This document shows positions 28,376-63,786 of a stretch of DNA of 64,000 bases, in pieces. The position numbers and the translations under genes were made by a program. The DNA lies in contig PUDQ02000034.1 of NCBI GenBank assembly GCA_002964805.2, forward strand, positions 1-64,000. Direction: 5' to 3'. The stretch's first letter is position 1. Each line of letters begins with the position of its first letter. Below the pieces are notes generated by a model. That model was not told where the DNA came from and ran no database searches. It worked only from the letters and a program-made list of their open reading frames with translations. The DNA is from Trametes villosa. Lineage: Eukaryota > Basidiomycota > Agaricomycetes > Polyporales > Polyporaceae.

Positions 28376-28854
28376 TCTGTATCTCCGGGATGTAAGTACG
28401 TAGCAGAGTTCTTGGAACCATCGAACACTCGGCGTCAACACGTGTACATCCGCACCCATGTTCGTCGATGAGTAACGTGTGTCCGTGGTGCTCGTCCCTG
28501 CCTGCCCTCATAGAGCACCTCGGTACGTCTGCCTGGGGGAGACTAGTAACGTGTCAGTCGGAGCCTCGAGTGAGTGAGGCCGCCCTGAAGTGCAATAAGT
28601 ATGTGCCTATTGCGCGGACGCACTGACTCTTCCTGTGAAACATGTTCTGGCCAGTAACTGGCGCCCTAAATTACTGAGATAGGACCCTTCGGCTTGCTTG
28701 TGCGAGATATGAACCGCCAGGTCAATGAGCTAATTAGAACTATATCAATAGTGTACTGTAGTAGCCCAAACGCAATTTCGCCACAAAGCACCACCATGTG
28801 AGCAAGAGATGCATTAAGAGTACATCTATGAGTTTGCTTCCACCGACTGCCAGT
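28376..28854. other. Intergenic between convergent genes
   Basis: 3' flanks of the ZZ-finger gene (+) and the arginyl-tRNA synthetase gene (-). Nothing else seen. Confidence 0.5.
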
Positions 28855-30979: not shown

Positions 30980-31498
30980 TGTGAGATAGTTGCGGCTCAG
31001 GTTTTTGTGAAGTGGATAGAGAGCGCGAGCGCGGGGTAGAAGTACAGGGGACCGAGAGATATTTACACGGAGGAGGGGGAGTCGGAAAGATAGCAACGCC
31101 GCCACAGTGCCGCCCAGTATATTAGGAGATTTTTCCGAGTCAGATGGCCAGTGTTTTTTTCGATACGAACAAGGTCCGGAGCGCGAGAGTGCAGAGTTCA
31201 ATCGATTGGAATTTTTGTAGAGTCACGAAGTACAAATGGGCGCCTACCAAAGTGTCGGCCCAAATACGGCAGCTAAGAAGGTTCACGGAGAGACCGTTGC
31301 AGTCGTAAAAATTCCAACGAACTCAGTCAAGGACAGCTATATGCATTAAGGATTATCTAAAGGTATCAGAGATGCGAAGGCGCGATATCGACAGGAGCTG
31401 CAGGGAGAGCGCTATAGTACAAGGATTCCAACTTCGGCGGCAGAGACCGGGTATACTACAGAGGGTGAGCACAGCTCCAGACCCTCGAGCCGTTTCGT
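30980..31498. other. Intergenic between head-to-tail minus-strand genes
   Basis: 5' flank of the arginyl-tRNA synthetase gene and 3' flank of the inositol oxygenase gene. No gene seen. Confidence 0.5.
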
Positions 31499-32759: not shown

Positions 32760-32977
32760 GGTGAAGAATATAGTGAAAGGTGGGAGGAGAAATGTGAGGG
32801 GAACGAGGGCGAGAGAGGTGGTCGAAAGCAAGAGGTTTAGGCGCGAGGTGTTGGAGAGAGTGCGGTTGCCACAGAAAATTGTGAAACAGTCGCCAAGGGA
32901 GCTCAGCTTATGTCAGGATGCGATGAGGAGTGTGGGGCAGCGGTGGCTGGTTGACAGTTCGCAAAGCCAGCCTGTCT

Positions 32978-32984
32978 TTTATAC
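32978..32984 (-). promoter_or_regulatory. TATA box of the inositol oxygenase gene
   Basis: TATAAAA on the minus strand, about 220 nt upstream of the ATG at 32759. It is the only strong TATA element in this flank. Confidence 0.55.
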
Positions 32985-35394: not shown

Positions 35395-36519
35395 ATGGCT
35401 CCTCGTCGGCGGTTGGTACAACCTCCCCTTCTTCAGCGAATCGCTGCACTGGTAAGTACGTCGACTATCGTTCGCGCGCGAAACATACTCACCCGTGCGA
35501 TACAGTCATTGAGGCCCAAGGTCTCTACGGTTCCTCCAGGCTTGTTGGCCTCCTCGGTGCAAAGATTCCGCACTCAGTGGGCGCACTTCCGCCGTTCTCC
35601 TGTACGATATATCGCTCAGCGAGCTTACGAAGCGTACGCGACGCTCCCCCCGGAGGCACTTCTCAAGGCTCGAAAGAGCGCCTTCCGCGTTGTATGCATC
35701 TCTGACACGCACGATGATCACCACCGGCTCCCGCCTTTGCCACGCGGAGACATCCTTATCCATGCCGGGGATCTCACAAGAACGGGGGCGGAACAGAGGA
35801 TTCGCAAGGCCTTGCAGTGGCTCAGCTCCGCGCCACATCAATACAAGGTGTTTATCGCCGGGAACCACGACGTTGCCCTCGCCGATCCCGCAACGCGCGA
35901 CGCCATCCTTGCGGACTTTCCGAATTTAATCTACCTCGAAGATTCCGAGACAACGCTCACGGTTCGTGGTCGCGACATCTCCGTGTATGGCTCCCCGCAC
36001 ACGCCGCTCGCTACACGCACGGCACAAGCCGTCCCAAGGGGCGTCTTTTGCGCGGGGGAAGAGATCAGACAGCAGCGGGCGGAGGCCATACCAATCCACA
36101 CGGACATCCTCGTAACCCACGCCCCGGCACAGTGCCATCGCGACGCGGCCGGCCTTGGCTGTGAACACCTCCTCACCCAGTTGTGGCGCGTGCGCCCGCT
36201 CCTACACGTCTTCGGGCACATACACCCTGGGCATGGCGTCCAGCACCTGAACTGGTCGGGGGTGCAGGTGGTATATGAGTCAGTGTGTCAGGGGAAGCGT
36301 GGCTGGGGAGGCGCTCTGAGGGTCGTTTGGGCGGCGTTGGGAAAGGCACTCGGGAAGCAGGCTCTGCGATATCGACCTCGCAAACATACACTGCTGGTCA
36401 ACGCCTCGTCGGTGGGGGGAGGAGGGCTCCGGGATCCGATAGTCCTCGATCTCGCGCCTCACCCTCGAGGGAGACGAGTACTACGCCCGAGCAGATCTGA
36501 CCGGACTGCAGTGGAATGA
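35395..36519 (+). CDS. Metallophosphoesterase, MPPED-like (array copy 1)
   Basis: Predicted metal-dependent phosphoesterase; substrate unknown. All calcineurin-type motifs are intact in order: CISDTHDDHH, ILIHAGDLT, VFIAGNHD, ILVTHAP and HVFGHIHPGHG. The N-terminal ~80 residues are basic and precede the fold (RRSPVRYIAQRAYEAYA). The ATG at 35395 is chosen; codons further upstream in frame lack an ATG. A stretch at 35452-35505 has perfect intron signals (GTAAGT to TACAG) but is 54 nt and stop-free, so spliced and unspliced forms would both be in frame (356 or 374 aa). First of three direct tandem copies with the same orientation. Intact and probably active. Confidence 0.85.
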   Translation: MAPRRRLVQPPLLQRIAALVSTSTIVRARNILTRAIQSLRPKVSTVPPGLLASSVQRFRTQWAHFRRSPVRYIAQRAYEAYATLPPEALLKARKSAFRVVCISDTHDDHHRLPPLPRGDILIHAGDLTRTGAEQRIRKALQWLSSAPHQYKVFIAGNHDVALADPATRDAILADFPNLIYLEDSETTLTVRGRDISVYGSPHTPLATRTAQAVPRGVFCAGEEIRQQRAEAIPIHTDILVTHAPAQCHRDAAGLGCEHLLTQLWRVRPLLHVFGHIHPGHGVQHLNWSGVQVVYESVCQGKRGWGGALRVVWAALGKALGKQALRYRPRKHTLLVNASSVGGGGLRDPIVLDLAPHPRGRRVLRPSRSDRTAVE

Positions 36520-37128
36520 GGTACGTACTTGCGGGGTCTGGCGTATGATGCACTTACTCACATACACCGCTATAGGCTGTGGACGATGCCTGAAAGGTCA
36601 TGCGCGGGCGTTGATTGATTCGACCTTGGTGCTCTGCGATACCAGGCTTGTTGTACCACTACAGTGTCCGGCCTCACCGGCTGCTCCTGATTGTTGCCTT
36701 CCGACTTGACCGAGTATATTAATCGATTGTCAGGTCGATTCACTTGTACCGAGGAAATGCATAGCTCGCCGACACCTGGTGCACACCGAAGCCGGGTCAC
36801 TTCGAAGCTCGGAGAATTCGAAGTCAGGAAGCGTCGGCACACCACGCGCACGCGGATATGACTGAGCGTTCGCCATGCAGTACCCTTCACCACGCCGTCA
36901 TACATATTGTGCACCTCGCTGCGGCAGCATGGCCTGCGCTCGCCTGCCAGACTTCCCAGTGCATCAACTCGTCAAGATAGGCGCGGACACGCAAGTGCAG
37001 ACGGTATCTTCCCCCTCCAAGGTTTCCTCCGTCGTCAGTCGTATTTCCCCAACGAGTTACTCGTATGCCAGAACACTTACTCGCCACCCATTGGCAACCC
37101 ATTCTAACTTTTATGAAGGGGTAGTGAC
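36520..37128. other. Intergenic within the metallophosphoesterase array
   Basis: No gene seen. The spacing of about 600 nt is similar to that before copy 3. Confidence 0.45.
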
Positions 37129-38070
37129 ATGCCTAATGCTGGCGTTCCGCCCCGCCTGCGCAAAGCCCCCAAGATCCTCGCTCCATGGCAGCAATTCCGC
37201 CGCTTCCCCATCCTGTTCTGTGCCAGGCGCGCCCACGCCGAGTGGGCAAAACAGCAAGTCAAGGATCTGAGAAGCACGCGCGCCGAATCGACCATCCGCA
37301 TCGTGTGCATCGCGGACACCCACGGCCACCACGACAGCGTCCCACCGTTGCCCCCTGGAGATCTTCTCATCCACGCCAGAGATCCCTCTGAAACTGGCAT
37401 TGAGGGAGAGACACATGCCGCCCTGGAATGGTTGAACCGTGCCCCGCACCTGCACAAGGTCTTCATTGCCGGCAACCACGACAATCTTTTCGCCGACCCC
37501 ACGAGACGCGATGCGATTCTGGCGACATATCCCGACCTCATCTACCTCGAGAACTCCTCCGCCACACTCACGATACACGGCTCTCAACTCACGCTGTATG
37601 GAAGTCCGTGCACCCCCCAGCGAGGGATTGGTGCGTTTCGGTACGCACGAGGCGAAGCGGCGTGGACGATACCTCCCGACACCGATATTTTAATCACCCA
37701 CGGCCCACCGAAGTCGCATCTAGACGTTGCCGGGTCTGGGTGCGCGCAGCTGCGACAAGCGCTCTGGCACGTCCGGCCGTCTTTGCACGTCTTCGGACAC
37801 GCCCACGGCGGGCGGGGGGTGGGTTACGCGGACTGGTCTCGGTTCCAGAAGGCGTACGAAGACGTTTGCGATGCGGGGACCGGCTTGGGATCGATGTTGC
37901 AGGTTGTATCAAGGACGGTACGAGCGGCGCTCGTGGGGGAACCGCACGCGGCTGCTGGAACAGGAAGAGGGACTGTTTTCGTGAATGCTGCGTCCGTAGA
38001 CGATGTGTCTGGCCACCTTCGGGAGGCAATACCTGTGGAATTTGCGCGGTACGGTGGTGCAAAGTTGTAA
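37129..38070 (+). CDS. Metallophosphoesterase, MPPED-like (array copy 2), altered motif II
   Basis: 313 aa, start at the ATG at 37129. Motifs I (CIADTHGHHD), III (VFIAGNHDN), IV (ILITHGPP) and V (HVFGHAHGGRG) are kept. Motif II is changed: where copies 1 and 3 read IHAGDLT, this copy reads IHARDPSET. The metal-binding Asp remains but the Gly before it is Arg and Leu after it is Pro. No intron is needed. The C-terminus (TVFVNAASVDD) matches the family. Either activity is modified or the site tolerates the change; sequence cannot say. Confidence 0.82.
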   Translation: MPNAGVPPRLRKAPKILAPWQQFRRFPILFCARRAHAEWAKQQVKDLRSTRAESTIRIVCIADTHGHHDSVPPLPPGDLLIHARDPSETGIEGETHAALEWLNRAPHLHKVFIAGNHDNLFADPTRRDAILATYPDLIYLENSSATLTIHGSQLTLYGSPCTPQRGIGAFRYARGEAAWTIPPDTDILITHGPPKSHLDVAGSGCAQLRQALWHVRPSLHVFGHAHGGRGVGYADWSRFQKAYEDVCDAGTGLGSMLQVVSRTVRAALVGEPHAAAGTGRGTVFVNAASVDDVSGHLREAIPVEFARYGGAKL

Positions 38071-38763
38071 TGTACAGTGGGCCCGGGCTAAAGGACTTTC
38101 TCAGTAGGCTTACCCTACTCTGTAGATTGCTTGGTTCAGTCGTACCAGTATCCACCATATGTTTATCGTGCTTGCAGCCTTTTCTCTATCCTGACTTTCT
38201 TTCTCGGGCGATGCGACTATAGTAGATCAGTGGTTGCGGTCAGGTTGCGGTAGGGACTTGAAGCTTGAAGCTTGAAGCCTAGAGAGCAAGCTCTGCAAGG
38301 ACTAATACTCCAATTACTAATGTGTCGACGACAGACGTTAGCGGAGTTGAAATGCCAGAACAAACTCAGTAAGCCGGCCTCCTCGGCACACTAGTCGGAC
38401 CGACAAGTACGGAATACTTACGTTCCAAAGTTCTTGTCTCCTCCCACCCCGTAGCCGCCTAGTACTGAGTACGGAGTACTGAGATCAAGCCTGGGTTCCA
38501 AGGGACTAGAGCCTGGGTGTCAGTGAAGTCCTTCTCTGAGTTGAGATTGACAGCCGCTTCCTCTCTTATAACGCGTAGCCCCGGGGCCTAGGCGTGGGCT
38601 TCTTGTACATACTATGGGACGCGACACTCGAAGTCCGGTCCGATTCGTACGACGCTTCCTTGAAGTGAGTCTCACATACCAGTCTCAGATCAGAAGTGCG
38701 TAAACAAACTCAATGAAGCTTCACGTACTCTCTTAGATCAGACGAGCGAATTTGAACCCGCTC
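38071..38763. other. Intergenic within the array, with a short tandem repeat
   Basis: Holds three perfect copies of the 7-mer CTTGAAG at 38257-38277 and an AGTACTGAGTACGGAGTACTGAG motif-rich patch near 38460. No gene seen. Confidence 0.5.
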
Positions 38764-39758
38764 ATGGCCTTCAGGAGAGGAATTCCTACGCTCTGGGAGC
38801 ATTTCAGCCATTCCCCCACACGATGGCTTGTCCAGAAAGCATATAAGTCGTACGCCTCTCTGAAGGGGCCGATAACCTTGGAGAGGGGCGATCCACAAGT
38901 CCCCGTCGTCCGTGTGGTCTGCATCTCTGACACGCACAACCGCCACAACGACCTTCCGCCCTTGCCTGAGGGCGACATTCTCATTCACGCAGGCGATCTC
39001 ACAGACACCGGATCACAATCTGAGATTCTCAGCGCGCTCAGCTGGCTTGCAGCCCAGCCCCACCCCCACAAAGTGTTTATTGCCGGCAACCACGATACCT
39101 TGCTCGCGGAACCCTTGTTGCCGCGGCTCATCCGCGTGCTCCACCCGGAGCTCATTTACCTGCAAGACAGCTCGGTCACGCTCGAGGTTCGCGGCCACCC
39201 GATATCGGTGTACGGGTCGCCCCGCACACCTCTGCGCAGCGGCCGGGGCGTTTTCCAGTACGCGCGATGGGACGGCACCACCTGGACCCGCCGCATACCT
39301 ACCGGCACCGACATCCTCATCACACACGGTCCGCCGCAGTACCACGGCGACGTCGCCGGGCTTGGCTGTAATGAACTCCGCTACGAGCTCTGGCGCGTGC
39401 GCCCCGTCTGCACGTCTTCGGGCACATCCACTCCGGCCGCGGCATCGAGCGCGCGGCATACTCGCCGGTGCAGCTGTGGTACGAGGGGCTCTGTAAACGC
39501 AGGCAGCGGGAGAGGTTTGGCTGGACGGCCGCACTGAAGGTCGTGCGCGCGGCGCTGCAGCGGGCGGCGGGCATCGAGGACGAGCGGACTATGAGGTCTC
39601 CTGCGGGGAGCGAGAGCATCCTGGTCAACGCGTCGTCCGTGAGCGCGACCAGGGGCGGCGACCTGCTAGAGCCGATCGTCGTCGATGTTGCGCTTACCGA
39701 GCCCTCCAAGAAGGAAAGGAAGAGACGGAGGAGGGCATCGCACGATCTGAAGGCCTGA
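38764..39758 (+). pseudogene. Metallophosphoesterase (array copy 3), 1-nt frameshift before the last catalytic motif
   Basis: Starts at the ATG at 38764 and stays in frame through motifs I (CISDTHNRHN), II (ILIHAGDLTDTG), III (VFIAGNHDT) and IV (ILITHGPPQYHG). At 39402-39405 the sequence reads GCCCCGTCTG where the duplicated copy (50850 region) reads GCCCGCGTCTG, so one base is missing. The frame then shifts and stops at 39537. The intended C-terminus, with GHIHSGRG and ILVNASSV, continues in another frame to 39758. Loss of the GHxH motif should abolish metal binding. A sequencing error is possible. The 3' part lies inside the 3.1-kb duplication. Downstream it converges on the HMG-box gene at 40290. 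Confidence 0.78.
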
Positions 39759-40289
39759 AGTGGATGGCAGCGTACTATCGTGTTGTACTCCCACCGTTGT
39801 AGCACTACTTGAACTTGAAGGAATGTAGGACGTATTGATCAAGCACCCGTTTCACCGTATTGGCAACGAGGCCGAAGACGCGATGACGACAATCCAATAA
39901 GCAGGTAGATAGATACATCAGATGGAAGCGAGGACAGTAACGCAGAGCGTCGGGCGCCGTGTGTTGCAATTGGGGGGTATGCGGTGGACGAGCCACCAGG
40001 TATCTATAGAAGATCATTGACAAGGCTATGTACGAGTAGAGGAGAGTAATGCTACAGTGGTGTCGGGCCAGCAGATAGAACAGAGCGGAGCGGGAACGGG
40101 AACAGCGCGTATAATGGCTACAGTGGAGGAGGTATTAGCACCCGCGACGCGGCGCGGGGCGAGAGGTATACAATGCTACAGAGAGACCGAGAGGAGAGAG
40201 ATGAGAGAGATGAGGGGTGAAAGTCAATGTGTGGTTTTGCGATGAGGATGATAACAGAAAGATGCAGGTAGCGAGCGTCGCGGACGAGC
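39759..40289. other. Intergenic between convergent genes, copy A
   Basis: Part of the duplication; matches 51208-51730 closely. It contains purine-rich tracts near 40170-40220 (GA repeats). No gene seen. Confidence 0.5.
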
Positions 40290-42176
40290 TCAGAACTCCT
40301 GCGGGGCGCAGAAGCCGTAGTCGGCCGCGCCCGCCTCCATGGCCATGTCGAACTCCGTCGTGTCGACCTCGCCATACACGTCGTAGCCGCCCTGGTAGCT
40401 CTTCTCGAGCTCCATCACGAGCGCAGAGAACTGTTGCTCCGCTTCCGCAGGCACGGGCGTGCCCTCGATCGGCTGCTGCTGAGCGGCGTCGTGCTCGGCC
40501 ACCCACGCATCGAACTGAAGCTGCGGGTGCTGAGGTTGAGGCGCGCAGATGCCCGCGCCCTGGGAGGGGACGGCGCTGTGCGGGAGGGACGCGTCCGAGC
40601 GGGCGGGAGAACCGGAGAACGCGCTGGAGGGTCCACTCTCAACCACAGGCCACGGTGCGTGGGGGTCGAGCGACTCGTATGCGCTCGCCGAGTACCCGTC
40701 GGTCGCGGTCGAGGGTCCAGACGCGGACGCGAAGTCGAAGCTGTCGAGCGGGCCGATGTTGAGCGAGAGCGCGTGCGCGCCCTCGTGCGGGCTGTACGAC
40801 GCCGCGTGCGGGTCGACCGAGCCGTAGTCGATGGCCGGCGCATCCTTGAACGCACTCGTCCAGCCCGGCTGGAAGATGCTCGCGTCCGTGACCTCCGGGA
40901 GCGGCTCGTTGTCCGGTTGAAGAGCCCAGCTCGCCACAGGCGCGCCGTACTGCTGCTGTGACGAGAACGCGTCGTAGCTGTCCCACATGCGCTCGGACGG
41001 GATCGGCTGAACACTCGAGGCGCGGCGCAGGCCGAGGAACGTGCGGTTGCGCGCGATGTTCCCTACGGGCGAAGGTGCGCGCGATCCGTGCGCGCTGTTT
41101 GCGCCGAAACCGAACCCTGCCGGGTTAAACATAGGGTTCGATCCGGGGAACGCCATCTGCGGGGCGGGAGCGGCGAAGAAGGGCACCGAGGGCAGTGCGA
41201 TGGGGTGTCCGGGGTGGAAGAGCGTCGATGGCGGGGGAACTGATGACGGCCGGCGTTGCAGATACGCGGGCGCGGTGGTCTGCTGCGGCCAGGGGTTCAT
41301 CGAGAAGCCGCCGGACGCGGCGCTTTCCGGGCGCGACATTGCACGCGCCATATCCAGCTGGCGCACTGCCTCTGCAAGCTCCTCGCCCTTCTTGCCCTCG
41401 AGCAGGAACTGGGCGACGGCCTCGCAGCGCTCTTCCTCCGCGGGGAGGGTGGGGAGCTTGTCCTTGCGTCTCGCGCTGCCATCTCCGAGACCGGCGGCAT
41501 CGTCAGCGGCTGCGGCTGCGGCCTCCGCCTTCTTCTTCTTGTTATGCACGGGCCGGAAGCGATAGTGGGGGTAGCGCTCCTTGTGGGCCGCCTTGGCCTT
41601 CTTCGCCTCGACTTCCCAGTACTTCTTCTCGTCGAGAGGGAGAGCACGCCAGCAGTTCCCTGATCGCACGACGATCTTAGCAACCGGGCTCGAGCTATCA
41701 ATATATCACAGTGGACCCTTACCGATGATCTTCGACAACGATCCGTGGTTGGTCTCGATGGAGCCGGGGACGTGCTTCTGGCGGACGAAGTTCGCGCGGA
41801 AGAGCATGAAGGCGTTCGGGGGACGAGGGATGTAGCCTTGCGAAAGGCGCTTGCCAGGTGGCAGGCGGCGACGTGTCGGGGCGCTTGACTGCGGGGCAGT
41901 GGGCGGGAACAGCGCACCGGTGGGCGATGGGGGCGATAGGTCGCCGTTCATGTCCTCGTCGCCTTCGAAGTACGTTCCAGGGGTGACATTCGGGGCGAAT
42001 GTGAGTGCGCGGGGCGAGGGCGAGTGGCTGATCCCGTAGTTCCCAGGCTTGACGTGGGTCAGGCCTGAAGTTTTCGTCAGCTCCTACTTCCCCTGCGCTG
42101 CGATTACAACCGACGACATACCCATGGCAAGAGATGACCGTCTGCGACGCATGAGCGCGCTACGTGCTGGAGGCAT
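40290..42176 (-). CDS. HMG-box transcription factor (duplicate A), three exons
   Basis: 588-aa predicted nuclear regulator. Exons 42176-42122, 42064-41723 and 41659-40290. The first intron (42065-42121) has GTATGT, CTGAC and CTTCAG; the second (41660-41722) splits the HMG box after LSKIIG. The box (about residues 98-171) runs from RPPNAFMLFR to YPHYRFRP. A Lys tract and an Ala-rich run follow the box, then a long Ser/Pro/Gln-rich tail ending YDVYGEVDTTEFDMAMEA. The ATG at 42176 sits in GCCGCCATGC and is the most upstream in-frame ATG I find; ATGs at codons 9 and 18 are alternatives. Protein differs from duplicate B at about four residues. Confidence 0.87.
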
Positions 42177-42415
42177 GGCGGCTGGATCGAGACCGGCTGC
42201 CCAAACGGAGGGGAGCCAAAGGAGGGAAAGCACGGGGGCCTCCCTAGTGTTCTCCTCTGCTGCAAACGATTTCCTCGCAGTCCGGGATCAGAACGCTGCT
42301 CGACGGCTCTCCCAGGACCCGGAAACGGTGCCGGGTCCTCAGCGAATCGCTCAATCTCCCGCGCAAGCGCTCACCGTAGCGACGGCCTGAAGACGACCGC
42401 CTCCGTACACCGGCT

Positions 42416-50749: not shown

Positions 50750-51207
50750 CCGGCACCGACATCCTCGTCACACACGGTCCGCCGCAGTACCACGGCGACG
50801 TCGCCGGGCTTGGCTGCAATGACCTCCGCTACGAGCTCTGGCGCGTGCGCCCGCGTCTGCACGTTTTCGGGCACATCCACTCCGGTCGTGGCGTCGAGCG
50901 CGCGGCATACTCGCCGGTGCAGCTGTGGTACGAGGGGCTCTGTAAACGCAGGCAGCGGAAGAGGTTTGGCTGGACGGCCGCACTGAAGGTCGTGCGCGCG
51001 GCGCTGCAGCGGGCGGCGGGCATCGAGGACGAGCGGACTATGAGGTCTCCTGCGGGGAGCGAGAGCATCCTGGTCAACGCGTCGTCCGTGAGCGCGACCA
51101 GGGGCGGCGACCTGCTAGAGCCGATCGTCGTCGATGTTGCGCTTACCGAGCCCTCCAAGAAGGAAAGGAAGAGACGGAGGAGGGCATCGCGCGAGCTGGA
51201 GGCTTGA
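50750..51207 (+). pseudogene. Truncated metallophosphoesterase, 3' part only (array copy 4)
   Basis: C-terminal fragment matching copy 3 from motif IV onward: GTDILVTHGPPQYHG, then VRPRLHVFGHIHSGRG in one continuous frame, then ILVNASSVSATRGG and a Lys/Arg-rich end (KKERKRRRRAS). The region encoding motifs I-III is absent; homology to copy 3 begins abruptly at 50750. Unlike copy 3, no base is missing here, so it preserves the ancestral reading of the region broken in copy 3. No start codon with a sensible N-terminus lies upstream. Confidence 0.8.
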
Positions 51208-51730
51208 AGTGTATGACCGCGTACTATCGTGTTGTACTCCCACCGTTGTAGCACTACTGGAATCTGGATCGATGTAGGACGTATTGATCAAGCACCCGTT
51301 TCAGCGTATGGGCAACGAGGCCGAAGTCGAAACGACGACAATCCAATAAACAGGTAGATAGATACATCAGACGGAAGCGAGGACAGTAACGCAGAGCGTC
51401 GGGCGCCGTGTGTTGCAATTGGGGGTATGCGGTGGACGAGCCACCAGGTATCTATAGAAGATCATTGACAAGGCTATGTACGAGTAGAGGAGAGTAATGC
51501 TACAGTGGTGTCGGGCCAGCAGATATAACAGAGCGGAACGGGAACGGGAACAGCGCGTATAATGGCTACAGTGGAGGAGGTATTAGCACCCGCGACGCGG
51601 CGCGGGGCGAGAGGTATACAATGCTACAGGGAGACCGAGAGGAGAGAGAGATGAGGGGCGAAAGTCAATGTGTGGTTTTGCGATGACGATGATAACAGAA
51701 AGATGCAGGCAGCGAGCGTCGCGGACGAGC
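51208..51730. other. Intergenic between convergent genes, copy B
   Basis: Counterpart of 39759-40289, with scattered single-base and short indel differences, for example one GAGAGA unit fewer near 51645. No gene seen. Confidence 0.5.
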
Positions 51731-53609
51731 TCAGAACTCCTGCGGGGGGCAGAAGCCGTAGTCGGCCGCGCCCGCCTCCATGGCCATGTCGAACTCCGTC
51801 GTGTCGACCTCGCCGTACACGTCGTAGCCGCCCTGGTAGCTCTTCTCGAGCTCCATCACGAGCGCGGAGAACTGTTGCTCCGCTTCCGCAGGCACGGGCG
51901 TGCCCTCGATCGGCTGCTGCTGAGCGGCGTCGTGCTCGGCCACCCACGCGTCGAACTGCAGCTGCGGGTGCTGAGGCTGCGGCGCGCAAATGCCGGCGCC
52001 CTGGGAGGGGACGGCGCTGTGCGGGAGGGACGCGTCGGAGCGGGCGGGAGAGCCGGAGAACGCGCTCGAGGGTCCACTCTCAACCACGGGCCACGGCGCG
52101 TGGGGGTCGAGCGACTCGTATGCGCTCGCTGAGTACCCGTCGGTCGCGGTCGAGGGACCAGACGCAGACGCGAAGTCGAAGCTATCGAGCGGGCCGATGT
52201 TAAGCGAGAGCGCGTGCGCGCCCTCGTGCGGGCTGTACGACGCCGCGTGCGGGTCGACCGAGCCGTAGTCGATGGCCGGCGCGTCCTTGAACGCGCTCGT
52301 CCAGCCCGGCTGGAAGATGCTCGCGTCCGTGACCTCCGGGAGCGGCTCGTTGTCCGGTTGAAGAGCCCAGCTCGCCACAGGCGCGCCGTACTGCTGCTGC
52401 GACGAGAACGCGTCGTAGCTGTCCCACATGCGCTCGGACGGGATCGGCTGGACACTCGAGGCGCGGCGCAGGCCGAGGAACGTGCGGTTGCGCGCGATGT
52501 TCCCGACGGGCGAAGGCGCGCGCGATCCATGCGCGCTGTTCGAGCCAAAACCGAACCCTGCCGGGTTGAACATAGGGTTCGATCCGGGGAACGCCATCTG
52601 CGGGGCGGGAGCGGCGAAGAAGGGCACCGAGGGCAGTGCGATGGGGTGTCCGGGGTGGAAGAGCGTCGATGGCGGGGGAACAGATGACGGCCGGCGTTGC
52701 AGATACGCGGGCGCGGTGGTCTGCTGCGGCCAGGGGTTCATCGAGAAGCCGCCGGACGCGGCGCTTTCCGGGCGCGACATTGCTCGCGCCATGTCCAGCT
52801 GGCGCACTGCCTCCGCGAGCTCCTCGCCCTTCTTGCCCTCGAGCAGGAACTGGGCGACGGCCTCGCAGCGTTCCTCCTCGGCGGGGAGGGTGGGGAGCTT
52901 GTCCTTGCGCCTCGCGCTGCCGTCTCCAAGACCAGCGGCATCGTCAGCGGCTGCGGCTGCGGCCTCCGCCTTCTTCTTCTTGTTGTGCACGGGCCGGAAG
53001 CGATAGTGGGGGTAGCGCTCCTTGTGGGCCGCCTTGGCCTTCTTCGCCTCGACTTCCCAGTACTTCTTCTCGTCGAGAGGGAGAGCACGCCAGCAGTTCC
53101 CTGATCGCACGACGATCTTAGCAACTGGGCTCAAGCTATCACAGTGGACCCTTACCGATGATCTTCGACAACGATCCGTGGTTGGTCTCGATGGAGCCGG
53201 GGACGTGCTTTTGGCGGACGAAGTTCGCGCGGAAGAGCATGAAGGCATTCGGGGGACGAGGGATGTAGCCTTGCGAGAGGCGCTTGCCAGGTGGCAGGCG
53301 GCGACGTGTCGGGGCGCTTGACTGCGGGGCAGTGGGCGGGAAGAGCGCACCGGTGGGCGATGGGGGCGACAGGTCGCCGTTCATGTCCTCGTCGCCTTCG
53401 AAGTACGTTCCGGGGGTGACATTCGGGGCGAAGGTGAGTGCGCGTGGCGAGGGCGAGTGGTTGATCCCGTAGTTTCCAGGCTTGACGTGGGTCAAGCCTG
53501 AAGTTTTCGTCAGTCCCTACTTCCCCCGCGCTGCGATTACAGCCGACGACATACCCATGGCAAGAGATGATCGTCTGCGACGCATGAGCGAGCTACGTGC
53601 TGGAGGCAT
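51731..53609 (-). CDS. HMG-box transcription factor (duplicate B), three exons
   Basis: 588 aa; exons 53609-53555, 53497-53156 and 53100-51731 have exactly the lengths of duplicate A (55, 342 and 1370 nt). Same HMG box and same splice signals. Differences from A that I can see are Ser for Ala at residue 7, Asn for Ser in the GIxHSPSP segment, Ser for Ala in GFGFGxNS, and Pro for Ala in the final FCxPQEF. Intron 2 is 8 nt shorter than in A (AATATATC absent). Upstream, B has TTTAAA at 53694-53699 where A has TTGCAG-type sequence, so expression may differ. The frame is intact throughout, so I call it functional. Confidence 0.87.
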
Positions 53610-53847
53610 GGCGGCTGGATCGAGACCGGTTACCCAAACGGAGGGGAACAAAAGGAGGGGAAGCACGGGGGGCTCCTTATTGTTCTCCTCTGCTTTAAAT
53701 GATCTCCTCGCAGTCCGGGATCAGAACGCTGCTCGACCGCTCTCCCAGGACCCGGAAACGGTGCCGGGTCTCAGCGAATCGCTCAATCTCCCGCGCAAGC
53801 GCTCACCGTAGCGCCGGCCTGTGCACCACCGCCTCCGTACACCGGCT

Positions 53848-56800
53848 TGATGTCGTCCTTGCACTCAAACCACCATCTATCTGTTCCCCAACTGACATCG
53901 AGAACACGCTCAGCTACCACCCTAGGACGCTCAGAACATCGCGCTCACCTCTGGCTCTCTCTGGACGCGGCGACTTCGACCTCTCGGGGTCCTGCTTTCC
54001 CATCAAGAATCGCCTGACCTATCGGTACTTTTGCTTGTTGACCAAAATGGCAGTCCCTTTGTTCAGTCCCGCTTTCGGCGAGCAGGCACACCTTCTCCCA
54101 ACGTGCACGCGCACGGCGAAGAGCTTCTCTGACATGCTCGCCTGGGAATCCCCGCTTGAACTGGGGCGTCGGCAGGCGTCGGCCAGCCCCGCCGCGAGTT
54201 GGTCTGTTTCGTAACTTGAGACCGCTGTCCTCGGGTGAGTCCGTCCACTTACCGTATTCGTACCGTTTGGGAGAGGACAGCACGAGGGCAGCGGCATGTT
54301 CGCGGGCATGCGCCGTTCGGAAAGGCACGTCGTGGTTGCGGAGAAAGAGTCGGCGAAGGTTCGAAGCTCGACCAAAGTGCGTCGGCTGCTGCTCGGCTCC
54401 CCGACGAGCTTCGACGGCGCATGCGCACGGACCATGTGGGGCTTCGGAATGGGCGTGCTGCTGCCGACGTGTTATGTGCTCAGTATTCAACCGTACACGA
54501 CATGTATTTTCAGCCCGCCAAACTGCCCGTAGAGGTGCGGGAATACACTCCGTTCTGTGCTTCCATTCACGCCCCCTACGCGGTGGAAGCCTGAGAGCGC
54601 CGGCAGGGATTGCCGACGGTCCTGGTGCCATGATGTCCGAAGCAACAGATTCTGACTCCTCGGTATGCACATGGCCAGAGCATCCAGCCCCGAGCTGCCT
54701 GGTTATGGTGCAGGATATCCGACGATTCAACTCGGTCGAGATCGTTGCTCTTCGCTGAAGTTGGGATTTGCCTCCGAGCCCGCCAAGTCCTTGTCCGGAA
54801 AAGGCAGGCATTGTCGTTCGCCTCGCGGACTCCAACGCAGCCACCCACCCAGCGTTCGCACGCTAGAAGAGGCCCTCTTACGTCAAGCACGCGCATTCCG
54901 GAGGCAACCGACCCGTTGACGACCTTGTATATCGCTGCTTCTGCCGCGAGAGTGCTCCTGAGAGCTGCGGTCGGGAGGGGCCGACGGCGGGGCGGGTTTC
55001 ATGGCCATTCTACGTCTGATTCGCCGCTGTCCTCGACACCACTGGCACCTACTGCTCTCTTTCGCGCTAGCCTGATATGCCAGGGATGGCCCCAGGTAGC
55101 ACTTGCCGGCGCTGGCACGGGCAGTGGAACAACATCGTCCAATCGTCCAGCTCGCTCGAGGCCCCTCGGCGACGTTATACTGGTGATACCCCCACCTGTC
55201 TCTGTGGCACCCGGTGGGTGACGCCATACACGCCACCACATACACTGCGCCGTCTCCGCAGAGATGCCTAGAGGAACCTTGTACTCGCGCCGCTATCTCG
55301 TCGGACGTGCGACAAACCTTGCGGAGCGGTAAGTCGCCGTGACAGCGCGCATCTTGTCCCTGACATATCTCCTGACAGCATCAACGCTCTATGCTCCTCA
55401 AGCCTCAAGGTGCTCAACTTCGACAGCACCCGACGGGTACCATCGGAGCGCTGGTCTACTCGCCAACATACATGAGCCTGAACCAACACCCGTCCTTCCG
55501 CAGCGCTTGGCGTCGTCGGCGGGTACGGCACTCGAGCAGGTGTTGTAGTTCCACGCTGCCGAACATTCGGCGGGCGGTCGTGCTGTGCTACTTGACATAT
55601 GGGGACTGGCTGGCTAGCCGAGCGGTCTCCGCGAGGGCCTTAGGAGTTCCGCTCCGTACGTTCGACACTACAAATGCCACTACTGCATTCCTGCGCGTTA
55701 CGACACCTATGCGAAGAACACCGGTATCGCCTCCCGCTCGTACTCACCGCACAGTGGATGGTGCGCCGACTACCATTCCCAGGCCTTGCTGAGCCGCATA
55801 CTGCAGGACCGCCGCCCGACTCCTCTGGACGGTCTCGCGCGGAGGCTGCCTGTACCTCCGCCTATACCGGAGTTGTGATCCCTCTCCCTCTTCGCAGTTA
55901 GGGTTTGGGCTGCGCGCCGACGCCGTCTCGTCCTTGAGGTAAGGTGGCAGATCACGCTTATGCCTTTTGTGATCTCAAAGACATCCCAGGCTTGATCAGC
56001 GGTACGCTAGCCCTCACTCGCAGGTATCGTCCCCTGAGAATTTCGAAGAGACGCTCGGATGGCTGGGAGTTGGATGTGGGCTTTGCATCATACATGTGTA
56101 CGTTGAGAATGATTGCCTCATACTTGTGCGAGAGGGCCGCCGCTCAGTGCCTACACCACAAGTTGAAGCAGGGCGAAATCTGCGCAGCATCATCGAAATT
56201 GCCAGATGCATCACAAGTCGTGTGCAACCAAATCGCGCCCGCCAACCTGCAGCCGTTCGCTATTGCGAGTCTGTGCGGCCCTGTACAGTAAGTCCTGAAC
56301 GGTGGATACCTTCGAGGCTGTATGCGCCTAGCACTCCCATTTATTCGCCGGCACTACAACTCACAAGGAATGGCAGACGAGTCCGTTCACCGCATCCGCA
56401 GTGGTATCTCGAGAACTGTTCTTCCCCGCATTCGTTTCGATGTGCCCTGAGCCATCTTGTTGGTGGTCCAGATCAGTCATGTAGCAATGATTGATGTATT
56501 TGATTGTACCGCGCCGCCATACTTACCAGAGTGTCCAAACCTCCTCCCCGCGGTTCTGTCGATCATCGTCGTAAGTACGCAATGGGTGTTGCGGGAAGAT
56601 GCCGCGGGGCAGCGATCACATTGATGGAGTTGATCGAGGAGGGAAAGATCTTCGATGGGTACTTCAGCCACCGACTGAGACGACGCTCGCTCAGCCACCA
56701 CGCTCATCCACCTCCTCATCTATATATACCTCCATGGCGTGCTCATTCCTCCCCACTCTCGCGACATCCTGTGGCGGAGCGCGTATGGGACGCTGAGCCA

Positions 56801-57140
56801 GCAAATGCACGGCCTTCCAGCCACCAACACCCACGAGTCACCCGACCGACCGCGCTCGACAGCTCGCATGCCGTTCCTAGCCTCCATTTGAAAGGGCGGA
56901 CGCCGGACGGGTTTGATGATAGACTTACTGCTTTGATAGGCGCATAATGCACGCAATGATCCCGAGGGATGGCGAAAGCAATGGCGGGCTCCCCACATGC
57001 TCCGCGTCCAGCGCGGTAACGTCAACTCGGTCTTCGCGTGCTTCTTATAGGCTGCCTATCGCGCTCCATGTTATCGCCCCGGTCCCATATATCCCCTCTT
57101 CCTCCGCCGGAGCCCGGGTTGTCGCTGCTTGCTCGCCGCC
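53848..57140. other. Interval with possible gene remnants (3.3 kb)
   Basis: No gene I can name. Between 55860 and 56560 there are several intron-like signals (for example GTAAGG at 55939 and CCCAG near 55990) and coding-like snippets such as RISKRRSDGWELDVGFASYM and HVYVENDCLILVREGRRSV, but in different frames without a start or a domain. It may be a decayed or poorly conserved gene. A TATA-like CATATATCC near 57087 precedes the permease gene. Confidence 0.35.
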
Positions 57141-60076
57141 ATGTCCTCGCTGCTGCAGTCCCTGTCTTCCTGGAGAGCCCGCCGACGCGGCGAAGAGGCC
57201 TCGGATAACGAGGTCGTTCCGGTGGAGGCGCCCCTGGACGCGAAACGGTCCAAGGAAGATAGCGATGGAGAGTCGCTCGCGTCTAAGGAGGTCACGACCG
57301 CCGCGGATCCGACACTCAACCCTGGCGAGCTCTCTTTCGAGGAAGGTGCGTGAAAGCGATTCCTGAAGGTGTGGGCCGCAGGGTGGCTGATAAGGACGCC
57401 CTAGATGCCGCCGGTGGAATGGGCCGTCATCTTGGCGTGTTCAGCTGCACGCTGCTCATGTGAGTACAGTTAACCCCTTTCAAATGACAAGAGACACAAA
57501 CCAGGAGTTCACAGCGTCGGACGTATCATCGGTACTGGCATTTTCTCAACGCCCTCCTCGATCCTCGGCTCCGTAGGGTCAGTGGGCGCGTCCCTCATGC
57601 TCTGGGTCCTCGGCTTTGTGCTCTCCTTCTGCGGGCTCTTCATCTGGCTCGAGTTCGGCACAATGTTCCCCCGTTCCGGCGGCGAGAAGGTGTACCTGGA
57701 GGCGGTTTACAAGAAACCGAAGCATCTCGCGACCGTCATCTTCGCTGTGAACGCGATCGTCCTTGGTTTCACGGCCTCGGGCTGCATCGTACGTATCGCG
57801 CGTTCCTTCATTGTATGCGCATGTGCTGACCGAGATGCATTTATGCAGGTGTTTGCCCAAAAGTATGTGTACAGCTGAGCTATTGCCGTTTGGTATGTCC
57901 TGACGTCATTGCCAAGCATCCTCATCGTTGCAGGCCACAGCGCGGAGCGATGGGTTACTCGCGGTATCGCCCTCGGAGGTGCGTCATGCGCTCTCCCCTT
58001 GTCGACAGAATTGGATTTTGACTGGCTGCGTAGTGATTGGCTTCGTAACCCTCCTGCACGGCCTGACGCCCCGCCTCGGCGTGTGGGTCATGAACGTAAG
58101 CGTACAAGCCAGTCTGGGAGAGCTCCTACTCACACGATCGTCCTTTTCAGGGTCTGAGCCTGTTCAAGATCATCATCCTCATCTTCATCGTGATCACCGG
58201 TACGTGCCTCCGCGCCCCCAACACAGATCTCGTGCTCACCTCGCGGCGCAGGGTGGGTCGTGCTCTCTGGGAAGACCCACATCGAGGACCCGCACGCGAA
58301 CTTCCGCGACGCGTTCGCCGGGAGCTCGCACAGCAGCAACGACGTCCGTCTCCCCACCGCCCCTCCTCTTCCTGCTCTTGCTAACGGCGGTACCTATAGT
58401 ACGCGACCGCGACGTTCAAGGTCCTGAACGCGTACGCCGGGTGGTCGAACGTGAACTACGTGCTCAACAACGTCAAGAACCCCGTGCGCACGCTCAAGAT
58501 CGCGGGCCCGCTCGGCCTCAGCATCTGCGCCATCCTCTACCTCCTCGCCAACATCAGCTACTTCGCGTGCGTCTCCCCAACTGCCATCGGGCTCTTGCGG
58601 CTTTGAGCTTGGCTGACACGGTTTGGGCGGGCAGGGCGGCGACGAAGGACCAGATCATCCACAGCGGGACGACCGTCGCGAGTCTGTTCTTCAAGAACGT
58701 GTTTGGCGTGCAGGCGCAGAAGGCGCTCACTGTGTTCGTCGCTTTGAGGTGAGATTCCAGACCTAGTGTGAGGGGTTATATGCTAACAATTGCGCAGTGC
58801 TCTAGGGTAAGTGCTCAATCTTGAAAAGTGAGAAGCAGAAGTTTATCGAATCGCTTTTCGCGCACTTTTTGCTATACAGAGTGAGTGACATGCGTAAAAC
58901 ATGATAGAGCATTTACTTACCCTCCTTTATCCGTATAGAACGTCATCACGATCGTATGTGTTGCTAACTCACCCCACAACGTGTGCATTGATCTGAAATA
59001 TCGCACACCAGACCTTCGCTGCAGCACGCATTAACCAAGGTAAGTCAGCACGGACTAAACTTGGAGGTAAAAACTCACCTTACACCCTTCGCCAGAGCTC
59101 GCAAAAGAGGGCGTTCCCCTGCCGTTCGGTAACAAATTCTGGGCTTCGAACTGGCCCACGGGCAAGTCGCCGCTCCCGGGACTAATCATCCACTTGATAC
59201 CCTCGGTGCGTGTGGCCGGCTTGGACGCATATATGCGCCCACTAAGCATTCAACAGATCATCGTCATCATCGGGCCGCCGCCAGCGGTCGCATACCCCTT
59301 TATCCTCGACGTCGAAGGCTACCCCAGTCAGGTCATCAACCTCTTCATCGTAGTCGTACGTCCCGTCTCGTCTTCGAGCGCGTGAAAACGGCGGCGTGCG
59401 GGGAGCTCACGCGCCGAATTTTGCAAATACCTAGGGACTGTTCTGGCTGAGGTATCGCAAGCCGAACGCGCCCCGGCCGTTCAAAGGTGCGTCTAGCCTT
59501 ACCCCGCCCTCCTGCTGCCCGGACGGACGATGCTGAGCTCCGCTTGCAGTGTGGTGGCCCGCGGCCGTGTTCTTCCTCGCCGCAGCAGTATTCCGTGCGT
59601 ACCCCTCTGAATCCCATCAGCTGATTGCCCGCCGCTCGACGGCCCTGCCGAGCGCACTCGCTGACGCGCGCCGTCCCCAGTGCTCGTCGCGCCTTTCCTG
59701 CACCCTGCGAACGGCAAGGGCGACACGCCGCCGCTCCCGTACTACCTGTGCGTGCGCCCCGCCACCATCGTTCGCGTCTCCTGTTCGGCTGACGTGCTTG
59801 ATGCTCTGCCTCTCTCGTTCCTGGCAGGTACTGTCTCGTCGGCATCGCCGTCTTGGTCACCGGCGTGCTGTACTGGGCCGCGTGGCGCATCGTCCCGCGG
59901 TGGTTCGGCGTCGAGTATGTCCCGCGCAAGGAGGTGCTCCCCGACGGGACCGTCGTCACCTTGGTGAGTTTGGTTCTGGGTCGTGTTACGGATCGGCGGG
60001 GGTGGGGGGCTCCCCGGATCTTGATCAGTGCTGACCGGCTTCTTCTGTGCAGTTCTCGCGGCAAAAGATCGAGTGA
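57141..60076 (+). CDS. Methionine-type amino acid permease (MUP1-like), copy 1, with micro-exons
   Basis: Plasma-membrane APC/LAT-type transporter of roughly 580 aa, about 12 hydrophobic segments. Recognisable stretches: VGRIIGTGIFSTPSSILGSV, FIWLEFGTMFPRSGGEKVYL, VNYVLNNVKNPVRTLKIAGP, PFGNKFWASNWPTGKSP and PANGKGDTPPLPYYL. Start ATG 57141; early exons are 57141-57345, 57405-57459, 57515-57788 and 57850-57863 (14 nt). The last exon reads FSRQKIE and stops at 60076. The region encoding SALGNVITITFAAARINQ is split into exons 58798-58806, 58880, 58939-58953 and 59012-59039 (9, 1, 15 and 28 nt), whose sum equals the single 53-nt exon of copy 2. Best match in memory is high-affinity methionine permease; the substrate is inferred. 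Confidence 0.85.
58880..58880 (+). other. Predicted single-nucleotide exon in permease copy 1
   Basis: The lone A sits between TATACAG (acceptor, ending 58879) and GTGAGT (donor, from 58881). Together with the preceding exon ending in GG it makes GGA (Gly), after which the next exon (58939-58953) reads AAC GTC ATC ACG ATC. Without it the frame is lost; with it the protein aligns residue for residue with copy 2 (ALGNVVTVTF). Flanking introns are 73 and 58 nt. Confidence 0.7.
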
Positions 60077-60699
60077 GGCCTGGGGGAGTCTATGGAGCTT
60101 CCCGGCGGGGTCCTATGACCATTTCTGTGTCTGTATTACGGTATTTATGTCGTTCTTGTAATGGATGCTCATCGGATTGTATTGGAACGTTCATGTGTCT
60201 TCTGCACCGGGGATAGACCCCAAGCGAAGTGCATGAGATGCCGGAGCCAGAGGATGGCGCGATTCGCTTGGAGGGAACCTGCACCGCTCTCGAGGCACGG
60301 CCGCGTGGAATCGTTCTTGCTCAAGTGCTCCGCCTGGCGTCGCGCCTCGACTCGGCGGTCGCAGCGCTCGCCCAGCCCGCGCGCAGCCAATGCGCGCCAC
60401 GACGGCCCCGCGGGACGAGAATTTCGCGGTGATTGGGTTGGCGGGGCTCGCCGGGTGAACGCCTTTCCCGCCGTTCACCCGCAGGCGCCCGTGGTGGGCG
60501 CGCACTCCCTCCATCTTTTAGCCCTCTTCGCGATGTTGCGCTGCGATGGCGCAAGCCCTCGGATCGCGGATGCGTCGCGCGCGGCGTGCATATGTATACG
60601 GCCCCCGGCGCAGGGGCGGAGGCGTCTTCCTGTTCCGTCGACCCTGCCCTTCTAGCTGCAGTGTAGGTCCACCCGACGCTCGCGATCATCTTCGGGAAC
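60077..60699. other. Intergenic between tandem permease genes
   Basis: Compact spacer holding the 3' flank of copy 1 and the promoter of copy 2. No gene seen. Confidence 0.5.
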
Positions 60700-63287
60700 A
60701 TGTCCGGACGCTTCAACCTCGCGTCATTGAAGGCGCTCTACCCGCGCAGGGCCAGAGCAGAACCCGTGGTAGAGACGGAGCCCGCGCCGTATGCGAAGTC
60801 GTTGGACGATACGAAGACGAAGAACCCGCACCTCGACACCGACGACGAGGCCTCTCTTCAAAATGTGGCTGACGCTGCCGAGGTCGACCCGGAGCTCAAC
60901 CCTGGAGGCCTGTCCTTCGAGGAGGGTAAGTCGTACTGGAATCGACCTGACGTATAGCGTATACTGACGTGAATTTTTTAGACACCGCCGGAGGAGCTGG
61001 TCGCCATCTCGGCGTCTTCAGCTGCACGATGCTCATGTAAGTTGACCTCTTCTTTCTTCTCGGAAGAACGCATGCTGACGCATCTACAGCGTCGGCCGTA
61101 TCATCGGAACCGGTATCTTCTCGACACCATCATCCATCCTCGGCTCCGTAGGATCGGTCGGCGCGTCGCTCATGCTATGGGTTCTCGGCTTTGTCCTCTC
61201 TTCCTGCGGTCTCTTCATCTGGTTAGAGTTTGGAACGATGTTCCCTCGATCCGGTGGCGAGAAGGTGTACCTCGAGGCCGTGTACAAACGGCCCAAGTTC
61301 CTGGCTACATACGTTTTCGCTGCGAACTCCATCCTCGTCGGTCTCACGGCTTCGGGCTGCATCGTGAGTAGCTCATTCCTTATGCGCATATAGCAGGACT
61401 AATGAGCCATGCAGGTCTTTGCGAGCAAGTACGGCGCTTTCCTATTTCACTGCTGATCTACCTACTAAACTGCACGTAGCATTCTCGAGGCTGCTGGCCA
61501 CGAAGCCACCCGATGGACAACGCGTGGAATTGCGGTTGGAAGTGAGTGAAACCGTAGCATGATGAGAGAACAATACTCAATATCATGTCGTAGCCATCGT
61601 CTTCGCGGTCCTGCTGCATGGACTGACGCCGCGCATTGGAGTCCTCATCATGAACGTACGTCTCTCGCATGCCGCAACGTACAGGGCATCGTACTGAATT
61701 CCTGCCGTAGGGTCTCAGCGTGTTCAAGGTCGTGATCCTGCTCTTCGTCGTCATCACCGGTTGGGTCGTGCTCTCGGGAAAGACGTCCATCCAAGACCCG
61801 CACGTCAACTTCCGGAATGCGTTCGCCGGAAGCTCGAACAGTAGCAACGACGTCAGTATCGCATATACTCATCCAGCCTAACCGGTAGCTAACAGATATG
61901 TGCTCAGTACGCTACGGCCATGTTCAAGGTCCTCTACTCGTACATCGGCTGGTCGAACGTCAACTACGTCTTGAACAACGTGAAGGATCCCGTCCGCACG
62001 CTCAAGATTGCAGGCCCGCTCGGTCTTTGCATCTGCGCCGCTCTGTACCTCCTTGCTAACGTTGCGTACTTTGCGTGAGTGACTTTTCCCTCCATCTAGT
62101 GGAAGTGCAATACTGACAGGAGCTTTTAGGGTCGCGACGAAGGAGGAGATCATCGACTCTGGCGTGACAGTCGCCTCCCTCTTCTTCGGCAAGGTGTTCG
62201 GATCTCAGGCGCAGAAGGCGCTCACCGTATTCGTGGCCCTGAGGTACGTACCCCACCCGGACAATGTGGGATGTGTCGTTGACGCCTGGATAGTGCGCTT
62301 GGAAACGTCGTCACCGTCACCTTCGCCCTCTCCCGTATCAACCAAGGCGAGTCTGGCAAACGCCTGATAGCATTGCAAACCGCAGTGCACTGACTCGAGA
62401 GCTTGCTAGAGCTGGCCAAGGAGGGTCTTGCGCTCCCCTTCGGTAACAAGTTTTGGGCTTCGAACTGGCCTACGGGGAAGTCGCCCTTCCCCGGTCTCGT
62501 TCTCCACATGATTCCCTCCGTACGTCCACTACGCTTCAAGCTCTTCCCCTCGTGTACAGACTCACACCGCTACAGATCATCATCATGATCGCACCCCCGC
62601 CAAATGTTGCGTACCCGTTCATTCTGAACGTGCAGGGGTACCCCATACAGGCGATTAACCTCTTCGTCGTCATCGTGCGTTTACCAAGGTGTTTCCCATC
62701 GACCCGTAATACTGACAGACGACACAGGGTCTGTTCTGGCTAAGATACCACAAGCCGAACGTGCCGCGTCCGTTCAAAGGTGCGCCTATCCCAATCGCCA
62801 AGCGCATACATTCACATTTCCTGACGCTGCTGTGCAGTATGGCTTCCGGTCGCCTTCTTCTTCCTTGCTGCGACTGTGTTCCGTAAGTCCCCAGTCGCAC
62901 TTGTCGCGTATCCGGTGCGCTCAACTGAGAACTCTCCACAGTGCTCGTCGCACCCTTCATCCGCCCGGCGAACGGCGTCGGCGACACGCCCCCGCTGCCC
63001 TACTACCTGTATGTCATATCTCCGCACGCGCCGCGATCTTCCCCTTACTTTCAATCTATCCAGGTACTGTCTCGTCGGCATTGGCGTGCTCGCCTTCGGC
63101 GCCCTTTACTGGGTCGCATGGAGACAGCTGCCGCGCTGGTTTGGGTACGAGGTCGTGCAGCGGAAAGAGGCGCTCTCCGACGGCACCTTCGTCACTGTCG
63201 TACGTTCTCCCGTCCCCCCTAGCGCCGTCTCGCAGCGTGCTGACGTCCGACCGTGTCATGCAGAACGACTACAAAAAATTCGAGTAG
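60700..63287 (+). CDS. Methionine-type amino acid permease (MUP1-like), copy 2
   Basis: Tandem paralogue of the preceding gene, same strand and nearly the same length. Start ATG at 60700 (MSGRFNLASLKALYP), stop at 63287 after NDYKKFE. The cytosolic N-terminus has DPELNPGGLSFEEG, like copy 1 (DPTLNPGELSFEEG). Core motifs repeat: VGRIIGTGIFSTPSSILGSV, AGHEATRWTTRGI, WVVLSGKTSIQDPHVNFR, SNVNYVLNNVKDPVRTLKI. A 14-nt exon (61415-61428, encoding VFAS and part of Asn) is shared with copy 1. The exon 62294-62346 (53 nt) is undivided here. The intron after it (62347-62409) starts GCGAGT, a GC-AG intron, where copy 1 has GTAAGT. Frame is intact through all junctions I checked. Confidence 0.86.
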
Positions 63288-63786
63288 GCTCGTCGCCTCC
63301 GCACGGACCCGTAGACAGACGATGGACCGTGCATGTACTCCGCTAATGCTGCCCCACACATTGATACCTCGTAGCAATCGCAATCGGAACCTGTAACACC
63401 ACAAACATCTTTCTGGGGGACGCCTGGCTTACTCTCAGCAAACGCAAGAGCGTACGAGACGTGCATATCAACATGCTGCCATTGCATTTGGGTTGGTGTG
63501 AAGCCTAACCACCTTCGTTGAGCGGAGGCTTTGCGCAGCTGATGATCGGCAAGGCTACACCCGCTGGTGAACCACAAGCTGTGTGCATCCTATTTGCAAC
63601 GAGACCCATGACCTCCACACGCTGCGACACGTACTTATGTAGCAGCAGCGGAATGATCGACGTCTGAGGTATCCCGCTCTTCTACTCTGAACCTCAGGCC
63701 TCAGGTAGGGCCGCGCAGATCCCTCCGTAGTCAGCAGCCGCTAACCGCTGCACGACAACAGGCTACCCCACACAGGCTACCCCACG
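63288..63786. other. Intergenic with a tandem 14-mer at its right end
   Basis: No gene seen. ACAGGCTACCCCAC is present twice back to back (63758-63771, 63772-63785), ending one base before the ATG at 63787. Confidence 0.6.

Follow-up and report, generated by a model that had tools for sequence, protein, structure and literature searches.

Can a single nucleotide serve as a coding exon in a fungal permease gene? The question arises from two tandem genes on the + strand of a 64,000-nucleotide stretch of Trametes villosa DNA (the whole stretch analysed, hereafter the window), in which 53 coding nucleotides that lie uninterrupted in one gene appear in four pieces in the other, one of the pieces being a lone A at position 58880. 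Permease copy 1 (57141..60076) has 21 coding exons and 20 introns and encodes 559 amino acids in a full open reading frame, and its tandem sister, copy 2 (60700..63287), has 17 coding exons and encodes 566 amino acids, both gene models having been built by hand from the sequence. Copy 1 belongs to the AA_permease_2 family (PF13520); it scores 304.6 bits (E 1.6e-90) against the Pfam profile, above the curated cut-off of 27, over profile positions 1-425 of 427, and the solved structures closest to it in a comparison with the PDB are those of b(0,+)-type, Xc- and LAT-type transporters. The proteins of the two copies are identical at 420 of 560 aligned residues. The full 559-residue protein of copy 1 requires the A at 58880 as an exon of its own.

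The initial annotation had divided the stretch into the pieces 58798-58806, 58880, 58939-58953 and 59012-59039, and all of these exist; together they make 53 nt and align gap-free with the uninterrupted exon of copy 2 at 62294-62346. Upstream of the block lies an intron (58749-58797) that copy 2 shares (62244-62293) and that carries GCTAAC close to its 3' end. The 9-nt exon TGCTCTAGG (58798-58806) supplies the last base of a Ser codon, the codons for Ala and Leu and the first two bases of a Gly codon, and is followed by intron A (58807-58879, 73 nt, GTAAGT...TACAG), by the putative one-nucleotide exon at 58880, which would provide the third base of that Gly codon in VALSALGN, and by intron B (58881-58938, 58 nt, GTGAGT...GTATAG). 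The 15-nt exon 58939-58953 (NVITI), intron C (58954-59011, 58 nt) and the 28-nt exon 59012-59039, which encodes TFAAARINQ and opens the codon after it with its last base, complete the block. The boundaries of the pieces are also as described, with CAG or TAG in front and GTAAGT, GTGAGT, GTATGT and GTAAGT behind. That three introns missing from the sister lie within 53 nt holds as well, but they are not the only ones, as a fourth intron specific to copy 1 is found at 58200-58251.

A second permease pair of the same genome lies near C13:131-137 kb. In its copy 1 (C13:137134-134166) all 20 introns recur at matching places, including the one corresponding to 58200-58251, and each of its 21 exons aligns gap-free with that of the window, whereas introns A and B have diverged to 53% and 51% identity, with lengths of 75 and 55 nt at C13; intron C is 54 nt long there. 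The similarity of the intron cores between the window and C13 was matched by 1 of 200 shuffles for intron A and by 30 of 200 for intron B, so that intron B is indistinguishable from shuffled sequence and intron A barely distinguishable. Amid these diverged introns eleven bases, ACAGAGTGAGT, are identical in the two copies; the donors of A and B, the CAG and the A itself are unchanged, and the base thus has a standard acceptor before it and a standard donor after it in both (ACAG/A/GTGAGT). Of the neighbouring exons, the 15-nt exon is identical at C13 and the 9-nt exon has a single, synonymous difference. We regard the diverged C13 copy as the strongest evidence for the predicted one-base exon. 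Elsewhere in the genes, the copy 1 intron 57863-57916 has an AAG acceptor, which is kept in C13, and copy 2 uses a GC-AG intron at 62347-62409 (GCGAGT), whose C13 counterpart has GTGTGT.

The reading frame leaves little room for other arrangements of standard introns. When at most two GT-AG introns are removed between 58798 and 58953, a single solution stays in frame without a stop, in both copies, and it contains the one-base exon; the solution stays unique whether introns are required to have at least 45, 40 or 30 nt, because the 9-nt exon, when extended, reads GGG TAA, and the next exon, when extended leftwards, ends in an in-frame TAG. If GC donors are permitted, the in-frame solutions number 2, 6 and 11 in the window at minima of 45, 40 and 30 nt, and 2 at each minimum in C13. 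The sole GC-donor alternative common to both copies begins its intron at GCTCTA or GCACTA, whose donor scores (-14.7 and -8.7) are lower than those of all 66 comparison introns (the 72 introns of the four gene copies less the six instances of A, B and C).

A wider parse covered 58635-59130, allowed as many as six introns and was run under strict and loose thresholds, with a protein score that measures similarity to copy 2 and a splice score that drew on 62 of the 72 introns. It yielded 73 (strict) and 1518 (loose) in-frame parses for the window; for C13 the numbers were 310 and 6169. In all four parse sets the structure reported here has the top protein score (246), and its splice score is the best among the parses listed. 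The best parses that lack any exon of three bases or fewer reach protein scores of 168 and 204 (window) and of 194 and 207 (C13), against 246, and those listed without such a tiny exon differ in structure between the copies and place foreign residues in the conserved stretch. Two further parses (214) omit S-A-L-G; each of them has a one-base exon, in one case at 58880. We also compared six splice forms. Skipping 58880, so that 58807-58938 is removed as one piece, causes a frameshift with a computed stop at 59183, at codon 412 in both copies; retention of intron A leads to a stop at codon 369 in both copies and retention of intron B to a stop at codon 376 or 413. The reported form is full length in both copies, and the sole other full-length form omits the 9-nt exon and keeps 58880.

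As the form that drops the 9-nt exon and keeps the one-base exon is likewise in frame, the exact product is not fixed by the frame alone. Under that reading the intron would extend from 58749 to 58879 and VALRNV would replace VALSALGNV; it yields a full-length, in-frame protein in both copies, and in the strict wider parse it shares second place in the window by protein score and stands among the best four listed in C13. Nevertheless, its protein score is 214 as compared to 246 and its splice score in the window 48.7 as compared to 65.6, and it discards S-A-L-G, which is retained in copy 2 and appears as S-T-L-G (VALSTLGN) in a further paralogue at C82. Ser and Gly are also present there in the PDB alignments viewed (three from 20 matches), the Gly after FVA-S being kept at the matching place in all three, and the sole difference between the window and C13 within the skipped exon is synonymous. 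We consider skipping of the 9-nt exon very improbable, and it would need the one-base exon in any case.

The splice signals of the three introns were ranked among the 66 comparison introns, which are 49-100 nt long with a median of 56. Intron A has a donor at the 45th percentile in both copies; its window acceptor ranks 70th and its C13 acceptor below all 66. The donor of intron B, preceded by AGA, lies at the 18th percentile in both copies and its acceptor at the 38th (window) and 15th (C13), and for intron C the donor ranks 21st (window) and 80th (C13) and the acceptor below all 66 in the window and 8th in C13. Intron B has a candidate branch site, CTTAC, in both copies, 19 and 16 nt from the intron end, and the candidates in intron A are weak (6.5 and 7.0, where 54 of the 66 comparison introns reach 7.5 or 8). 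Two introns had been credited with GCTAAC branch sites, and the motif does occur twice, but in 58749-58797 and 58954-59011, neither of which flanks 58880; in the latter it is a poor branch-site candidate because it starts at intron base 10 and is missing in C13. In dinucleotide shuffles of the interval core, a one-base exon with a donor score of at least 5, an acceptor score of at least 0 and both introns of at least 45 nt arose in 43 of 20,000 (window) and 36 of 20,000 (C13), and a frame-fitting internal exon of any length from 1 to 40 nt, stops ignored, in 301 and 421 per 20,000, respectively. These counts, and the retention of the one-base exon at the homologous place in the diverged C13 copy, indicate that the arrangement is more than chance.

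These signals bear on two readings in which no exon would lie at 58880. One 131-nt intron with non-canonical ends (58808-58938, TA...AG, or its equivalent with a one-base slide on the acceptor side) would join GGG to AAC and thereby give Gly-Asn and the same protein, just the third base of the Gly codon being G and not A. Such an intron would have to start from donors scoring -20.9 or -20.5, below all 66 comparison donors, and an undivided interval of 131 or 132 nt would be longer than every comparison intron; moreover, the retention of ACAG/A/GTGAGT as an island amid diverged introns would have no explanation. We therefore hold this reading to be very improbable. Even less credible is a [D1,2] spliceosomal twin intron (stwintron) occupying the 132-nt interval, with an internal intron 58807-58881 (GTAAGT...CAGAG) inserted between G1 (58806) and T2 of the external donor GTGAGT. 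The letters formally permit this arrangement in both copies, and nested introns of the type are described in ascomycete fungi (PMC12403724), but two bases would be lost, the flanking exons would not be joined in frame and early stops would follow at codons 380 and 394 of the two copies, and the second AG that it needs scores below all 66 comparison acceptors in both.

A frame that depends on a one-base exon resembles, at first, a one-base deletion, and copy 1 might accordingly be a pseudogene or its frame problem a sequencing error. Against this stand the same arrangement in a second, diverged copy, models that are open to the end in both the window and C13, and the pattern of substitutions. 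Over the whole gene the window and C13 differ at 81 synonymous and 4 nonsynonymous sites, and 3' of the one-base exon all 22 coding differences are synonymous (1, 0 and 21 at the three codon positions), indicating selection on the downstream exons in the frame restored by the one-base exon. Drawn from two copies in one genome, this is a strong argument against error and decay alike, and we give a pseudogene or a sequencing error hardly any credence. The conclusion is the same whether the C13 copy belongs to the other nuclear haplotype or to a segmental duplicate. Ribosomal frameshifting that repairs the frame after a skip of 58880 was set aside.

The one-base exon and the split of the 53-nt exon, as the initial annotation had them, are thus backed by the frame, by the diverged second copy and by the substitution pattern, the base being needed for the reading frame by virtue of the sole GT-AG solution, the stops upon skipping and the synonymous differences downstream. 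Judging from sequence, we propose, with a probability of roughly 0.9, that 58880 is a constitutive one-nucleotide coding exon, that introns A, B and C were gained within the 53-nt stretch and that A and B are removed successively.

Both short, A and B are probably recognized by intron definition. We suggest that A and B came to lie one base apart in copy 1 and that the ordinary spliceosome would remove them one after another; they would have to leave in turn because the machinery assembled at the end of A and at the start of B would overlap. Whichever of the two left first, the remaining one would be a normal short intron. If B were removed first, a normal acceptor, CAG/AAACGTC, would be left for A, and if A were removed first, the second AG (CAGAG) might be used, a site that scores below all comparison acceptors. 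Of the two orders, B before A is the one expected, since B has the better branch-site candidate and its excision would eliminate the second AG at 58880-58881. The predicted join CTA GG+A AAC would regain the Gly of VALSALGN, its frame and conservation being computed and its splicing putative, and the predicted mRNA across the block would read ...GCTCTAGG-A-AACGTCATCACGATC-ACCTTC.... Removal of the flanking introns in turn is likewise the view taken for Arabidopsis APC11 (PMC4674806).

The initial annotation left it undecided whether copy 1 had gained introns or copy 2 had lost them. Copy 2 carries the stretch as a single 53-nt exon both in the window and at C13, and the C82 paralogue, which is more distant (tblastn pieces 26-48% identical to copy 1), has it unbroken as AVSVIVALSTLGNILAVLFTHGR, so that in two relatives the base lies inside a longer exon. 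As the tandem sister and the C82 paralogue both lack the three introns, gain in copy 1 is favoured, and the simplest account would be gain in the copy-1 line before the window and C13 copies diverged; independent losses of introns A, B and C in the other copies are possible. When the 205 nt that span introns A to C were searched against the same genome, the query alone was returned and even the C13 copy was missed, which marks both the extent of the divergence and the limits of that search, and a search of viral contigs gave no relatives. Six copy 1 introns of the window were also compared with each other in 15 pairs and both orientations, with 200 shuffles for each of the 30 comparisons. Among these 30, intron B paired with the reverse-complemented 59040-59095 gave the lowest shuffle count (1 of 200), followed by 58749-58797 paired with the reverse-complemented 58200-58251 (3 of 200), and nothing was rested on either; neither the genome search with the 205-nt stretch nor the pairwise comparison of the six introns revealed a source of the introns. 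It is conceivable, though unlikely, that A and B were born in one event, either as a single gained intron later divided around a cryptic A or as a stwintron-like unit whose nested geometry was lost, that the locus captures an early stage in the life of a one-base exon, and that an obligatory order of removal acts as a frame gate on a nutrient permease.

One-nucleotide exons have been reported in the plant genes APC11 and VPS55 (PMC4674806, PMC8831610). The statement of the initial annotation that no fungal case was known has been overtaken by the RNA-supported exon of Fusarium CYP621A, which a 2026 paper with 18 RNA reads calls the first in a fungal gene (PMC12940212), and by exons 'as small as 1 bp' in a 2014 account of Cryptococcus (PMC3990503). 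One-base exons are therefore already known in plants and in a few fungi, and copy 1 constitutes a well-supported new example and not a new kind. A literature search by titles and the beginnings of abstracts found no one-base exon described for a permease or for any polypore; it left subscription journals mostly uncovered and is weak evidence of absence. That the present genome is a polypore's is also suggested by its intron density together with a laccase fragment whose best PDB match is chain 1kya_A, from Trametes versicolor. What distinguishes the present case is that the gain seems to have taken place next to a tandem sister left uninterrupted, and that three introns lie in 53 coding bases.

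The closest parallel is Fusarium CYP621A (PMC12940212), another fungal gene in which one base contributes to a conserved Gly codon, a long interval (139 nt in F. graminearum) is resolved into two short introns, the frame fails without the base and an uninterrupted relative serves as a length marker. Unlike copy 1, in which the base is an A in the third position, the Fusarium exon is a G in the middle of the codon, in an ascomycete P450, and it was documented by 20 orthologues and the RNA reads, as compared to two genomic copies here. In plants, the one-base exon of Arabidopsis APC11 is an A, as at 58880 (PMC4674806), the donor behind that of VPS55 is GTRAGT (PMC8831610), where copy 1 has GTGAGT, and gene copies without the flanking introns exist in some species (PMC4674806, PMC8831610). 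The plant exons are, however, old and conserved across land plants, whereas that of copy 1 was seemingly gained in one of two tandem sisters, and the APC11 interval is longer, at 422 nt, and was tested with mutated constructs (PMC4674806). Cryptococcus neoformans var. grubii is a basidiomycete like the present species, and one-base exons are stated there for RNA-based gene models, but in a single sentence, with no gene named there (PMC3990503). Phlebia radiata, an intron-rich wood-decay basidiomycete, is likewise said to have exons below one codon, which differ in being of two nucleotides and in being described for predicted genes (PMC6540522). The [D1,2] stwintrons share with copy 1 the presence of two introns within one interruption and a necessarily successive removal, yet there the inner intron splits the outer donor with no coding base in between (PMC12403724), in contrast to the one coding base here.

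One-base exons are readily missed by gene prediction, as was said of their own cases by two of these studies (PMC12940212, PMC8831610), and wrong models for conserved proteins are the consequence. The locus provides a natural comparison, in which neighbouring paralogues carry the same stretch as a single exon and as 9 + 1 + 15 + 28 nt and a second diverged copy reveals which bases were retained by selection, and it would allow a fungal test of the order of intron removal and of the origin of such exons.

The introns of copy 1 (57346-60052) compare with C13 as a mosaic, the five from 59356 on being 87-97% identical and five of the eight within 58344-59256 51-59%, and the exons are 89-100% identical; the synonymous divergence of 0.22 between the two copies seems low next to near-random introns. 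The genes form part of a larger block shared between window 28732-63413 and G000:C13:120635-149625. By matches of at least 300 bp and E of at most 1e-20, window 28732-39817 and C34:63783-70110, which extends past the window, are collinear with C13 at 93-94%, and window 51421-63413 is inverted in C13 at 88% identity, an inversion of about 12 kb between the block copies. As for copy number along C34, the piece at 29.0-30.5 kb was found twice and the pieces at 72.0-73.5 and 99.0-100.5 kb once each. The window also contains a direct repeat, 39106-42415 and about 50750-53900, both of which match one set of C13 segments with like orientation. Just past the shared block, G000:C13:152000-153500 is a dispersed repeat with at least 40 matches of 97-100% identity on many contigs, 40 of 64 candidates having been scored.
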